From the NCBI GenBank assembly GCA_001512665.1, contig LFSF01000038.1, positions 65,859 through 104,658 of the forward strand: a DNA stretch of 38,800 nucleotides, given 5' to 3'. Shown here one piece after another: positions 21,478 through 31,332 of the stretch. The notes beneath the pieces were generated by a model. The model was not told where the DNA came from. It saw nothing but the letters and a program-made list of their open reading frames with translations, and made no database searches. The position numbers were made by a program, and so were the translations under genes. The DNA is from Clostridiales bacterium DTU073. GTDB taxonomy: Bacteria; Bacillota; Peptococcia; DRI-13; DTU073. The stretch's first letter is position 1, and each line of letters begins with the position of its first letter.

Positions 21478-22230
21478 ATGGCCTATCAAGTAAAATTACC
21501 TGTTTATGAAGGTCCCATGGACCTTCTCCTAGATTTAATTGAAGAAAATGAGATTGATATTTATAATATTCCTATAGCTCAGATTACGCAGCAATATTTA
21601 GATTATATTAATCTGGCAGGGAAATTAGATTTAGAATTGACCAGCGAATTTTTGATAATGGCCTGTACTTTACTTTCTATTAAAGCAAAAATGCTTTTAC
21701 CTAAACCGGTTGTAGAAACGGTGAATGAGGAACAGGAAATTGATCCTCGGGAAGAATTAGTTCAAAAATTATTAGAATACAAGGAGTATAAAGAAAAAGC
21801 TAAGCTATTTGAGGAATTAGAAGAACGTCAAGCCCAATATTATTGGCGAGAAATAGATGATGTTGAATTATTAAAAAAATTCCCACCTTCTAATCCTATT
21901 GGGGATGTAAAGTGGGAAGACTTGGTTTCTGTTTTTAATAAAGTTTTGGAAAGAGCTGAAAAAAGAGTTGAATCTCTCTCTTTAAACCGAGAAAAGGTCT
22001 CCATAAAAGATAAAATTAAATTTATCATGTTAAAGCTAAAAGAAAAGCAAAGTGGTCTTTCTTTTTATCAATTAATTTCCGATGCAGTCAGTAAGGAAGA
22101 AATTATTGTTACATTTCTAGCTCTTTTGGAACTAATCAAACGTAATAAAATTATAGTTCGACAAAAAGGTTTATTTCAAGACATCTACCTTTATCTCAAC
22201 ACAATTGAGGAGGGACAGGATCATGCCTAG
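21478..22230 (+). CDS. scpA: ScpA, kleisin subunit of the SMC condensin
   Basis: The 250-residue protein starts with YEGPMDLLLDLIEENEIDIYNIPIA, the conserved SMC-neck-binding domain of ScpA. An acidic middle region (residues about 80-100) and a winged-helix C-terminus (about 175-250) follow. It bridges the SMC dimer and ScpB in chromosome organisation. The binding site upstream is weak (GGGGC). scpB begins inside its last codons, which argues for coupled translation. Confidence 0.95.
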   Translation: MAYQVKLPVYEGPMDLLLDLIEENEIDIYNIPIAQITQQYLDYINLAGKLDLELTSEFLIMACTLLSIKAKMLLPKPVVETVNEEQEIDPREELVQKLLEYKEYKEKAKLFEELEERQAQYYWREIDDVELLKKFPPSNPIGDVKWEDLVSVFNKVLERAEKRVESLSLNREKVSIKDKIKFIMLKLKEKQSGLSFYQLISDAVSKEEIIVTFLALLELIKRNKIIVRQKGLFQDIYLYLNTIEEGQDHA

Positions 22231-22744
22231 TCTTTTTCCTGATGATGCGAAAAGTATTATAGAAGCTTTATTGTTTGTAGCAAGTGAACCGCTTTCTGTC
22301 AAAACTATTGCCGGAATTATTGAACGTTCGGAATATGACGTAGAATTAATTTTAAAGGAAATAAAGGCTGAATGTGAACGAGAAATGAAAGGTTATTGTT
22401 TGCTCGAGGTTGCTGATGGCTATTCTTTTGTTACCCGTCCTGAATATGCACCATATATTGAAAAATTAGTAAAACCCCGGCTTAATAACCTTACACAAGC
22501 AGCCTTGGAAACTTTGGCGATTATTGCTTTTAAGCAACCGGTAACTAAGAGCGAGATTGATGAAATACGTGGTGTAAATAGTGACAGTGCGATTAGTACC
22601 TTATTAGCTCGTGCTTTAATCGAAGAGGCCGGTCGCAAGGAAGGTCCGGGCCGCCCTATAATTTATCGGACAACCAAAGATTTTTTGAAATATTTCGGTT
22701 TGAAAAATATAAAAGAATTGACCGAGATAGCTGAGAAGAATTAA
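22223..22744 (+). CDS. scpB: ScpB, condensin accessory protein
   Basis: The 173-residue protein has the two winged-helix domains of ScpB: IIEALLFVASEPLSV near the start, then ALETLAIIAFKQPVTKSEIDEIRGV, and GRPIIYRTTKDFLKYFGL near the end. It binds ScpA. The ATG at 22223 follows GAGGAGGG and overlaps scpA by 8 bases. The stop overlaps the stop of the convergent minus-strand reading frame by 2 bases. Confidence 0.95.
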   Translation: MPSLFPDDAKSIIEALLFVASEPLSVKTIAGIIERSEYDVELILKEIKAECEREMKGYCLLEVADGYSFVTRPEYAPYIEKLVKPRLNNLTQAALETLAIIAFKQPVTKSEIDEIRGVNSDSAISTLLARALIEEAGRKEGPGRPIIYRTTKDFLKYFGLKNIKELTEIAEKN

Positions 22745-22995
22745 ACAAAGTTAATTTTTATCGGAGTAGTATTACCGGTATTAAAATTCTTTTTCGGACG
22801 GTATATCGGTTGTAAGGGAGTAGCGAATTCTGCATCAATAGTTTTTACCTCTGTCACATTTGCATTTTCCTCATCAGTTTCTGCTGGTTTTATGGTGATA
22901 GTATCTATTTTAATGTTTGTAGGTCTGGGGCAGGGCTCACCCGGACATGGTTTTGGGCAAGGTGCCGGGCAAGGAGTAGGACAAGGACTGGGCAA
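22741..22995 (-). pseudogene. Frameshifted 3' part of the DUF2935/Cys-Pro repeat gene
   Basis: This frame continues the Cys-Pro repeat (PSPCPTPCPAPCPKPCP) that begins in the upstream frame, then carries about 60 residues ending TTPIKINFV. The two frames overlap in the repeat, and one base inserted there would join them. I take it as the displaced C-terminus of the DUF2935 protein rather than a separate gene, since its own ATG is internal to the repeat and has no binding site. The stop abuts scpB, as a real gene end would. Confidence 0.65.
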
Positions 22996-23804
22996 GGACT
23001 CGGACAGGGTCCGGGGGTAGGTGTTTGAGAGTGTTTAAGCATATTTACATCCCGGTCAATATCCTGAAGGAAACGCTCAGCTTCTCTTCTGACATGATCA
23101 GCAAGTAAGGGTGGAATGATACTTAAGATTTTACATTCTGTAATTAATTTAGTAGCTGTGGCTTTGAAATTGCGGATGTCTGTTCCTGCTTCGATAACAT
23201 CTTTGGTGAAACGTAGTAAAGAGGGAATGGGTCGAGGGGTAATTTCTAATATTGAATCAAAATCTTCAGCCTGAAAACGTAAACTATCAAAAGTATCACT
23301 AAACATTTGAGCTTGGCAAACAAATTTTCGTTCTGAAGGATCAAGTAGGTGCATAATAAATTTAGAATGATCAGCCATAATTCTTAACCAAAATACTTCA
23401 TCATTAATGAGTTCTTCTGTAGGAGACATTAATTCTCCACGGCATAAACGAATGATATTTGCAGCAAAGCGAATAGCTTCGCGTCTAATATGATCAACCA
23501 ATAAGGGGAAATTTGAGCCTCCTAAAGTACAAGTGATCAGCCGATCTAAAACTAAGGTTTTGAATTGAATTAATTCAAGAACAGCATTTAATGCTTCTTG
23601 GGCAAGGCATTTGATCTCAGCATCTGTTTTGGTACATAAACTTTTTTGTTCTAATTGGGCAAAACGTGATTCAAAGTTTTGTGCCATTTGGATTAACTGG
23701 GTTTCATTACAGGGGAATCCTAAACGTAAAAAAAGTGAGTGTTCTTTCATAATGCGAAGCCAAAACTGTAATTCGTTTAAAAGTCTTTGATTTATTGGAG
23801 TCAT
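22905..23804 (-). CDS. DUF2935-type helical protein with Cys-Pro repeat tail, frameshifted
   Basis: The protein has two similar helical-bundle modules. The first starts FWLRIMKEHSLFLRLG (residues 14-29) and includes HIRREAIRFA; the second repeats these as FWLRIMADHSKFI and HVRREAERFL. The recurring Glu/His pattern resembles metal-binding ferritin-like bundles and, as far as I recall, DUF2935. After residue 265 comes a C-P-x-P repeat, where the frame breaks. The last 23 residues (VLVLLLARH onward) are the wrong-frame reading. GGAGG lies 8 bases before the ATG. Two 17-base direct repeats lie just upstream. A Cys-rich tail would suit a spore-coat protein, which is inference. Confidence 0.75.
   Translation of the reverse strand: MTPINQRLLNELQFWLRIMKEHSLFLRLGFPCNETQLIQMAQNFESRFAQLEQKSLCTKTDAEIKCLAQEALNAVLELIQFKTLVLDRLITCTLGGSNFPLLVDHIRREAIRFAANIIRLCRGELMSPTEELINDEVFWLRIMADHSKFIMHLLDPSERKFVCQAQMFSDTFDSLRFQAEDFDSILEITPRPIPSLLRFTKDVIEAGTDIRNFKATATKLITECKILSIIPPLLADHVRREAERFLQDIDRDVNMLKHSQTPTPGPCPSPCPVLVLLLARHLAQNHVRVSPAPDLQTLK
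22921..23006 (-). repeat. Tandem 12-base repeat encoding C-P-x-P units
   Basis: Read on the minus strand, seven degenerate units of the form TGYCC...CCT follow one another. Their lengths are 12, 11, 12, 12, 12, 15 and 12 bases. The 11-base unit (22984-22994, TGCCCAGTCCT) breaks the frame; its neighbour reads TGTCCGAGTCCT. Confidence 0.85.
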
Positions 23805-23965: not shown

Positions 23966-25672
23966 TTAGATGTTGGTAATGGCAAGTACTGCATTTTTGA
24001 GCTGGGCTAGTTTGTTATTGGCTTCTTTTTTACTTGCAGCAACAACGGAAAAGTACAATTTAACTTTCGGTTCAGTTCCTGAAGGTCGGAAACAAAACCA
24101 GGAATCATCATTAAAACGGTAGTATAAAACTTTAGACTGAGGAAGGGTAAGGGCTTGTACTTCCCCTGTTATTAGATTATAAGATTTTTTCTGTTGATAA
24201 TTCCTTTTTTCAACAGCTTGTAGTCCGGAGACAATGGGAGGCTGTTGTTCAAGAAGTGTCATCACCCTATTTGCTTTTGTTTCGTCCTGTAATTCAACGG
24301 AAAGTAAATCTTCTTGAAAATAGCCATGACGTTGAAAAAGGTTTTCTAAAACTTGTAAAAGGCTCAAACCTTGTTCCTTATAATATGCGGTCATTTCAGT
24401 TAAGAGAAAAGCTGCAATATTAGCGTCTTTATCACGAGCATAAGTACCTACTAAATAACCATAGCTTTCTTCATAGCCAAAAAGGAAGTGAGGAGAGCCA
24501 TTAATCTCGAATTCTTTGATCTTTTCTCCAATATATTTAAAGCCGGTTAAAGTTTCAATAGTTTTAATGCCATAACTTTCTGCAATTTTTTTCCCTAAAT
24601 CATTGGTGACAATGGTTTTAATTAATACTCCGTCTTTAGGCAATTTTTGCTTTTTCTGCAACTGGGATAACAAATATTCAAGGAGAAGAGCACCGATTTG
24701 ATTGCCCGTAAAAAATTCATATTCACCTGCATTAACTTTAACGGCACAGCCTAAACGGTCACAATCAGGATCACTGGCGATTACTAAGTCAGCATTTTTT
24801 TGTTTAGCTAAATCCAAAGCCAGGGTAAATGAAGCTTTATCTTCAGGATTAGGTACTTTAACCGTAGGAAATTTAGAGTCTGCTATCATTTGTTCTTTTA
24901 CTACAGATAAATCAACATATCCGCATTGTTTCAATAATGTTGGTATGAAACAATTCCCAGTACCATGTAACGATGTAAAGACGACCTTAATTTTTTGTTG
25001 CGGCCGGTTAAGAGAATAAGAACGAATTTTTTCCAAATATAGCTTGTCTGTTTCGGAGGTAACAATTTTTATTAAACCTTTCTTTTCAGCATCTTGACGG
25101 TTTATTGTTAGAACATCTTGAAAAATGTGAACCTGGGCAATAGCTTTGGTCAAGTCATCAACAAAGGGAGATACGGCTTGACCGCCATCAGGTCCATAAA
25201 CCTTATAACCATTATACTCTGGTGGATTATGACTGGCAGTAATGACTATTCCTGCAACACATTGATGTTCTCTGATGGTAAAGGATAAAAATGGTGTGGG
25301 TTTAGGGCCGGAGAAGATTAATGCTTGAATTCCATTAGCAGCAAGAACTAAGGCTGCTTCTTCTGCAAATTCTTGAGAATAAAGCCGTGTATCATGGGCA
25401 ATAGCTACTTTAAGCAGAGATGAATGAGAATATGTTTGGCGTAAATAATTAGCTAAACCTTGAGTTGTCTTGCGTATTACATATGTATTCATCCGATTTA
25501 GTCCTACACCAATTATTCCTCTTAAACCACCTGTACCAAAAGACAGCTCTTTACCAAAAAGTTCTTTAATTGCTTGTTCATTATCTTTTATCTTGAGTAA
25601 TTCTTGTTTACTTTGAGAATCTACAATCTCTGACTGTAGCCAATCATGATAATTCTGTAATGTTTTAGACAT
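23966..25672 (-). CDS. Phosphoglucomutase/phosphomannomutase
   Basis: The 568-residue protein is an alpha-D-phosphohexomutase of the PgcA type. It has a metal and phosphate-binding start (GTGGLRGIIGVG), the phosphoserine loop TASHNPPEYNGYKVYG, the metal loop SDPDCDRLG, the sugar-binding GYEESYGYLVG and the phosphate-binding RPSGTEPKVKLYF. It interconverts glucose-1- and glucose-6-phosphate, or acts on the related hexose, for envelope polysaccharide synthesis. The start at ATG 25672 has GGAGG 10 bases upstream; the longer frame from 25708 lacks a site. A terminator follows, and a promoter and palindrome precede it. Confidence 0.93.
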   Translation of the reverse strand: MSKTLQNYHDWLQSEIVDSQSKQELLKIKDNEQAIKELFGKELSFGTGGLRGIIGVGLNRMNTYVIRKTTQGLANYLRQTYSHSSLLKVAIAHDTRLYSQEFAEEAALVLAANGIQALIFSGPKPTPFLSFTIREHQCVAGIVITASHNPPEYNGYKVYGPDGGQAVSPFVDDLTKAIAQVHIFQDVLTINRQDAEKKGLIKIVTSETDKLYLEKIRSYSLNRPQQKIKVVFTSLHGTGNCFIPTLLKQCGYVDLSVVKEQMIADSKFPTVKVPNPEDKASFTLALDLAKQKNADLVIASDPDCDRLGCAVKVNAGEYEFFTGNQIGALLLEYLLSQLQKKQKLPKDGVLIKTIVTNDLGKKIAESYGIKTIETLTGFKYIGEKIKEFEINGSPHFLFGYEESYGYLVGTYARDKDANIAAFLLTEMTAYYKEQGLSLLQVLENLFQRHGYFQEDLLSVELQDETKANRVMTLLEQQPPIVSGLQAVEKRNYQQKKSYNLITGEVQALTLPQSKVLYYRFNDDSWFCFRPSGTEPKVKLYFSVVAASKKEANNKLAQLKNAVLAITNI

Positions 25673-25738
25673 AAAAAATACACCTCCTTTTTTTATTTTT
25701 TTCTGCATTTTATGCCTTAATGAAAAAATGTTAATCTT

Positions 25739-29739: not shown

Positions 29740-30162
29740 ATGATGTTTGGATCTAAAAAAATAGCCTCGGCAGCTATTAAGATGGCATTATCTGAAAACC
29801 GCGAAGAAGAGAATCAATTAAAAAATGAATTATCTAAAATAAATATTAAGAGTGTTGCTGTTGATATAGGCGGTGAATATGAAGCATCAATCCAAAAAAT
29901 TGTGGAAAGAGCTATTGTTGCAGCAAAAAGAGAAGGTGTGATCAAAGAAAATCATCATGACGAAGGGGCCATTGCCGGAGCCACTCGTGAAGCCCTTTCT
30001 CAAATTCTGCCTAAAGCCTTAGGTTTCAACGTTGGAGGGAAAATTGGGGTAGCACGTCAAGGTGATCATATTAGTGTTGCCGTATTTTTAGGTATCGGGT
30101 TAGTACACTTAGATGAAGTAGCTATTGGTCTCGGTCACCGCGTGTCACCTTATAATCAATAA
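29740..30162 (+). CDS. hutP: HutP-family RNA-binding regulator
   Basis: The 140-residue protein matches HutP over most of its length: ENHHDEGAIAGATREALSQI, GFNVGGKIGVARQGDHISV and FLGIGLVHLDEVAIGLGHR. H72, H73 and H133 correspond to the His ligands and Mg/histidine site region of the B. subtilis protein. HutP binds L-histidine and Mg2+, then UAG-repeat RNA, to prevent termination of the hut operon. No hut genes are visible here. Its stop overlaps the aroH start (TAATG), so it is coupled to chorismate mutase. The target here is unknown. Confidence 0.85.
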   Translation: MMFGSKKIASAAIKMALSENREEENQLKNELSKINIKSVAVDIGGEYEASIQKIVERAIVAAKREGVIKENHHDEGAIAGATREALSQILPKALGFNVGGKIGVARQGDHISVAVFLGIGLVHLDEVAIGLGHRVSPYNQ

Positions 30163-30536
30163 TGAAAAGAGTATATGGAATTCGTGGTGCTACAACTGTA
30201 ACCGCTAATACAAAAGAAAATATTATTGAGGAAACGCAAAAACTGTTACAGGCTATTTTTCAAGCAAATTCAATTACCGCAGAAAATTTGATTAGTATTA
30301 TTTTTACCTCGACCAAAGATTTAAATGCTGAGTTTCCGGCTAAAGCTGCCCGTATAATGGGATTAACCGATATTCCTCTTTTAGGATGCTTAGAAGCAGA
30401 TGTACCCCATGGATTGCCTTTTTGTATCCGTGTTTTGCTCCACGTTTACTTAGATGAAGGAGCAAAGATAAAACATATTTATTTGCATGATGCTGTCAAA
30501 TTACGTCCCGATTTAAATCAAGAAACAATCTCCTGA
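30162..30536 (+). CDS. aroH: AroH-type monofunctional chorismate mutase
   Basis: This 124-residue protein is an AroH-class chorismate mutase. It has VYGIRGATTVTANTKENI (active-site Arg), NLISIIFTSTKDLNAEFPA and CLEADVPHGLPFCIRVLLH with the catalytic Glu and Arg. It converts chorismate to prephenate for Phe/Tyr synthesis. It is translated by a one-base stop/start overlap with the hutP-like gene and ends in a strong terminator. No other shikimate gene is nearby, in contrast to B. subtilis, where aroH lies in the trp cluster. Confidence 0.95.
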   Translation: MKRVYGIRGATTVTANTKENIIEETQKLLQAIFQANSITAENLISIIFTSTKDLNAEFPAKAARIMGLTDIPLLGCLEADVPHGLPFCIRVLLHVYLDEGAKIKHIYLHDAVKLRPDLNQETIS

Positions 30537-30639: not shown

Positions 30640-31332
30640 GTGATACTTATTCAAATTACAATTGATGGACCCGCAGGGGCAGGAAAAAGTACAATTGCCA
30701 AAATGATTGCAAAAAGACTTGGATTTATACATATTGACACCGGAGCTATATACAGAGTAATCACATATATTGCCATGCAACAGAATGTATGTTTAGATAA
30801 CGAAGATGCTCTTGTCCAATTAATCGCTAGCACGAAGATAGATATGGAACAGCAAGCAGAAGGTGAACAAAAGGTATTTTGTAATAACATTGATGTATCC
30901 AAAGAAATTCGAGATCCTATAATTAGCAAAAATGTTTCCAGAGTAGCTGTTTTACCGAAGGTTCGTCAAGAACTAGTACGAATGCAGCGGGAATTAGCTC
31001 AAGATAAAAATGTAGTTATGGATGGGCGGGATGCCGGTACAGTTATTCTTCCTCATGCGGAATGTAAGATTTTTTTAACTGCCTCTCTGGAAGAAAGAAC
31101 TTACCGCAGATATTTAGAATTAAAACAGCGCGGATATAATGATGAACTTGAATTTGTAAAAAAAGATTTAGCCAGACGCGATTATATTGATGAAAACAGA
31201 AAGACCAGTCCTTTAAAACCTGCGCAAGACGCGGTAATCGTTGATACAACCTGTTTAGGTCCTGAAGAAGTCGTTCAGGAGATTCTGCGCATATATCAAG
31301 AGAAAAAGGAAGCCTTAAACAATGTTTTATAA
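30640..31332 (+). CDS. cmk: Cytidylate kinase
   Basis: The 230-residue P-loop kinase has TIDGPAGAGKST, HIDTGAIYR (nucleoside monophosphate binding), DGRDAGTVILP and SLEERTYRRYLEL. It phosphorylates CMP and dCMP. The GTG start at 30640 gives the usual length, but AAAAGG abuts it, so the true start may lie 9 bases on, at ATT 30649. The next gene starts inside its last 11 bases. cmk - plsC - ispH-rpsA is a common order in Clostridia. Confidence 0.95.
   Translation: MILIQITIDGPAGAGKSTIAKMIAKRLGFIHIDTGAIYRVITYIAMQQNVCLDNEDALVQLIASTKIDMEQQAEGEQKVFCNNIDVSKEIRDPIISKNVSRVAVLPKVRQELVRMQRELAQDKNVVMDGRDAGTVILPHAECKIFLTASLEERTYRRYLELKQRGYNDELEFVKKDLARRDYIDENRKTSPLKPAQDAVIVDTTCLGPEEVVQEILRIYQEKKEALNNVL

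Follow-up and report, generated by a model that had tools for sequence, protein, structure and literature searches.

The window analysed here, a stretch of 38,800 nucleotides from contig LFSF01000038.1 of Clostridiales bacterium DTU073, an uncultured relative of spore formers, carries a minus-strand gene for a DUF2935 protein that faces a convergent scpB gene (Table 1). The product as assembled leaves the frame shared with its orthologues near its end, with residues 1–272 in that frame and residues 273–299 out of it. Its membership of the DUF2935 family (PF11155) is indicated by a Pfam match in two stretches (1.2e-62; 210 bits, with a cut-off of 24.4), and its best match in the PDB is 3d19, described as a 'conserved metalloprotein' (3.3e-64, residues 6–262). 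The gene is the orthologue of the ferritin-like, helical DUF2935 protein of related genomes. We found nothing useful in the literature on the function of DUF2935, and no literature on DUF2935 in spores.

Table 1. Features of the DUF2935–scpB region, with positions numbered from the first base of the window.
Feature	Position	Strand	Evidence
scpB, convergent	22205..22744	plus	PF04079, 2.5e-58
DUF2935 gene as assembled	22905..23804	minus	299 aa; ORF call, Pfam, PDB match
Imperfect Cys-Pro-x-Pro array, ~12-base units	22954..23006	minus	Tandem Repeats Finder, sequence, direct-repeat scan
11-base unit, site of frame shift	22987..22997	minus	Sequence reading, direct-repeat scan
Aberrant C-terminus, 27 codons plus stop	22905..22988	minus	ORF list; without counterpart in orthologues
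Out-of-frame continuation encoding the conserved tail	22741..22995	minus	ORF list; tail kept in seven orthologues

The frame changes within a Cys-Pro array, whose minus-strand units are, in order, CCCTGTCCGAGT, CCTTGCCCAGT, CCTTGTCCTACT, CCTTGCCCGGCA, CCTTGCCCAAAA and CCATGTCCGGGT, the second of which has only 11 bases (22997–22987). A sequence-only reading of this DNA had described an 11-base unit amid 12-base units encoding C-P-x-P, and the unit is real; the position then given (22994–22984) denotes this unit read in a different phase. The associated claim, that the frame shifts and a C-terminal tail is lost, is also confirmed, and the shared frame is left after residue 272. The annotated frame reads ...CPSPCP followed by 27 unrelated residues (VLVLLLARHLAQNHVRVSPAPDLQTLK) and a stop at 22905. 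The other frame (ORF 22995–22741) is open for 84 codons, continues the CPxP pattern, and proceeds through ...CPTPCPAPCPKPCPGEPCPRP... to TTPIKINFV; its stop (22743–22741) overlaps the convergent scpB stop (22742–22744) by two bases, in agreement with the earlier observation that the tail abuts scpB. Re-initiation at the TTG of 22995 was dismissed: this codon falls within the repeat and opens the ORF only mechanically, and nothing points to translation starting at it.

Tandem Repeats Finder places the array at 22954–23000, with 4.1 copies and 72% matches, and in a direct-repeat scan its longest exact repeat is 9 bases; an 8-base sequence, AGTCCTTG, recurs within it at a distance of 11 bases. 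There is no long homopolymer or non-triplet repeat in the array: homopolymers do not exceed C5, which is upstream of the shift, and the shift site itself has only CCC. The frame changes only if the 11-base unit is lost or a single base is inserted or deleted, since slippage by 12 bases does not alter it.

Seven orthologues were found in related genomes (G001, G002, G003, G004, G006, G010 and G012; the 5' end of the G006 gene is cut by a contig end), and each encodes, in one frame, the DUF2935 double core followed by a Pro/Cys-rich linker that varies and a C-terminal tail that is conserved. Among these eight genes the window copy is the only one that is frameshifted, and it misses this architecture, which is that of the order, by one base. 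The sequence-only reading had proposed a comparison with orthologues, and none of the seven ends at the window's early stop. The linkers themselves, all in frame, differ widely: G004 lacks a CPxP array altogether (PSPVPCYTIEP), G002 and G006 have short linkers, and the array of G012 is long. The G012 linker (contig L005) is a Cys-Pro/Pro-rich array of near-identical, longer units (PTPSPCPGPAPA...), and would lend itself to measuring variation in length.

The tail encoded out of frame in the window is 77–79% identical over about 43 residues to the in-frame tail of G004, which is more than would be expected by chance. Ten tail columns are invariant across the eight sequences, with a consensus in this order's DUF2935 proteins of QPxxRPxKxF...N....KIxF, and a search of 46 genomes of the class with a tail profile gave clear scores only in the window genome and those of the seven orthologues; one further match (E 0.007) was taken as chance. 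Comparison of the window and G004 tails gives pN of 0.148 and pS of 0.739, the latter being near saturation, and the tail is under purifying selection. The earlier impression that the tail is maintained is therefore well founded, with a counterpart in 7/7 orthologues. At positions where three close relatives agree, the window tail has five private changes compared with two to four in each relative, which argues that it has not been evolving freely for long. Lack of stop codons in 84 codons is by itself weaker evidence for the tail, given that in a neutral simulation of this length 54% of runs still lack a stop at 0.1 substitutions per site, and 13% at 0.5. We found no published description of a conserved tail or Cys-Pro linker in DUF2935 proteins; conservation of the tail behind a flexible Cys/Pro linker may point to a role in attachment or assembly, possibly on spores, and the presence of SpoIVA in the window genome is compatible with this. 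The DUF2935 proteins of family f11 (G029 and G036) end at the core, and the core can therefore exist without the tail.

The surroundings of the gene vary between relatives. In G005, a genome that is 95% complete, scpB and the phosphoglucomutase gene are immediate neighbours; DUF2935 is absent from this position and was not found genome-wide, which argues that the gene is accessory and dispensable in the family; loss of the tail would be in keeping with this status. G002 and G006 have a ferritin/Mn-catalase-like gene between scpB and DUF2935, which is missing from both the window and G005 loci; elsewhere in the window genome there is only a relative with 29% identity. This locus thus loses genes within the family, DUF2935 in G005 and the ferritin-like neighbour in the window. 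The ferritin/Mn-catalase-like genes (L038 4510–5064 in G002; L010/L039 in G006) match the EncB family of encapsulin cargo proteins weakly, below the cut-off. The phosphoglucomutase also differs in form: it is a standalone protein of 580 aa in the window (23966–25708) and a 1035-aa fusion in G002 (L038 6252–9359), whose N-terminal part resembles, by eye, mannose-1-phosphate guanylyltransferase.

A conserved tail that stays open in the −1 frame could be explained by programmed −1 frameshifting of ribosomes within the 11-base unit, yielding both products. Such recoding is expected to use a slippery heptamer paired with a stable RNA structure downstream; the sequence at the shift, TGC_CCA_GTC, contains no X_XXY_YYZ heptamer, the downstream RNA folds no better than shuffled sequences (z −0.48), and the orthologues need no shift to make the tail. 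We consider this extremely unlikely.

The sequence-only reading had suggested possible phase variation, in which frequent and reversible slippage of the array would switch cells from one C-terminus to the other and back. One part of this is conceivable, in that the frame would be restored if the 11-base unit flanked by the AGTCCTTG copies were deleted, and linker length does differ greatly among the relatives. There is no comparable route back, however: once lost, the 11-base unit would not be regenerated from 12-base units, and its duplication would lead to the third frame, not to restoration. Frameshifting by slippage requires a unit whose length is not a multiple of three (PMC2651432), and gain or loss of the 12-base units is neutral for the frame; these units have moreover diverged from one another, and no orthologue is in the alternative state, G012 with its long array included. 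Switching between two C-termini is accordingly unsupported and we regard it as very unlikely. Equally unlikely is a population in which both alleles are present, where deletion of the 11-base unit, or recovery of the missing base, gives cells that differ in whether the ferritin-like protein is tailed. A two-state C-terminus would be of interest if true, but the present data do not support it.

A more serious alternative is that the consensus is locally wrong, and that in living cells the unit has 12 bases and the protein is produced at full length. The intact state of all of the relatives and the lack of clear relaxation in the window tail are consistent with this, and the selection signal is also what an intact gene carrying a sequencing error would give. 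The genome is a draft in 52 contigs, and the array is GC-rich (59%, against 37% for the window), where errors would gather. With exact repeats and homopolymers as short as those described above, however, the array is a weak target for repeat collapse or homopolymer error. We also compared about 417 kb of this genome with the proteins encoded by about 0.8 Mb of DNA of relatives, and in the roughly 149 kb of conserved coding sequence under matches the DUF2935 gene is the single true frameshift. General sequencing error is therefore unlikely, and the notion of a generally error-prone genome was dismissed. A search for another genome of this species returned only UBA5356 (G004) from the contig scan, no further member of the genus from the family set, and no match from viral contigs. 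Overall, an error confined to this position is less likely than a real mutation, yet it is the main rival.

Four other candidates from the scan were rejected. The C17 match is to an antisense frame, the C12 match spans an N-gap, and another reflects overlap where an extended frame begins. The fourth proved to be two adjacent window genes, for an AroH-type chorismate mutase (30162–30536) and cytidylate kinase (30640–31332); in UBA5356 a 368-aa frame on the minus strand of L046 contains both, and is possibly a fusion.

The explanation that we favor, as probably correct, is a recent, non-programmed frameshift that removed an accessory tail. Loss of one base in a linker unit would have shifted the frame, and the cell would now make the intact core followed by the 27 unrelated residues, which replace the tail and the remainder of the linker. 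The shift, the conservation of the tail, the intact relatives and the gene losses are observed, whereas the presence of the shift in living cells, its recency and tolerance of the tail's loss are inferred. The frameshift would be effectively one-way, an early stage in the decay of an accessory gene at a gene-losing locus. The result matters mainly for annotation: the 3' end of this copy should carry a frameshift flag, and the conserved tail behind a length-variable Cys-Pro linker is a feature to be recorded for the DUF2935 proteins of this order.

The core of the window protein resembles DUF2935 proteins of known structure, PDB 3d19 and 3dby, from which the window gene and its near relatives differ in carrying the extra Pro/Cys linker and conserved tail. 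Simple-sequence-repeat phase variation, as at the tetranucleotide loci of Haemophilus influenzae (PMC2651432), likewise involves a repeat in a coding region and a change of frame; such systems use near-perfect repeats of a non-triplet unit, whereas the window has few, imperfect copies of a 12-base unit, one odd unit and a single allele seen. The closer likeness is to ordinary frameshift pseudogenes and early decay in small genomes, with one indel breaking a downstream frame that intact orthologues conserve and the gene absent from a sister genome. It differs from these in that only the tail is lost, and the intact core could still work.
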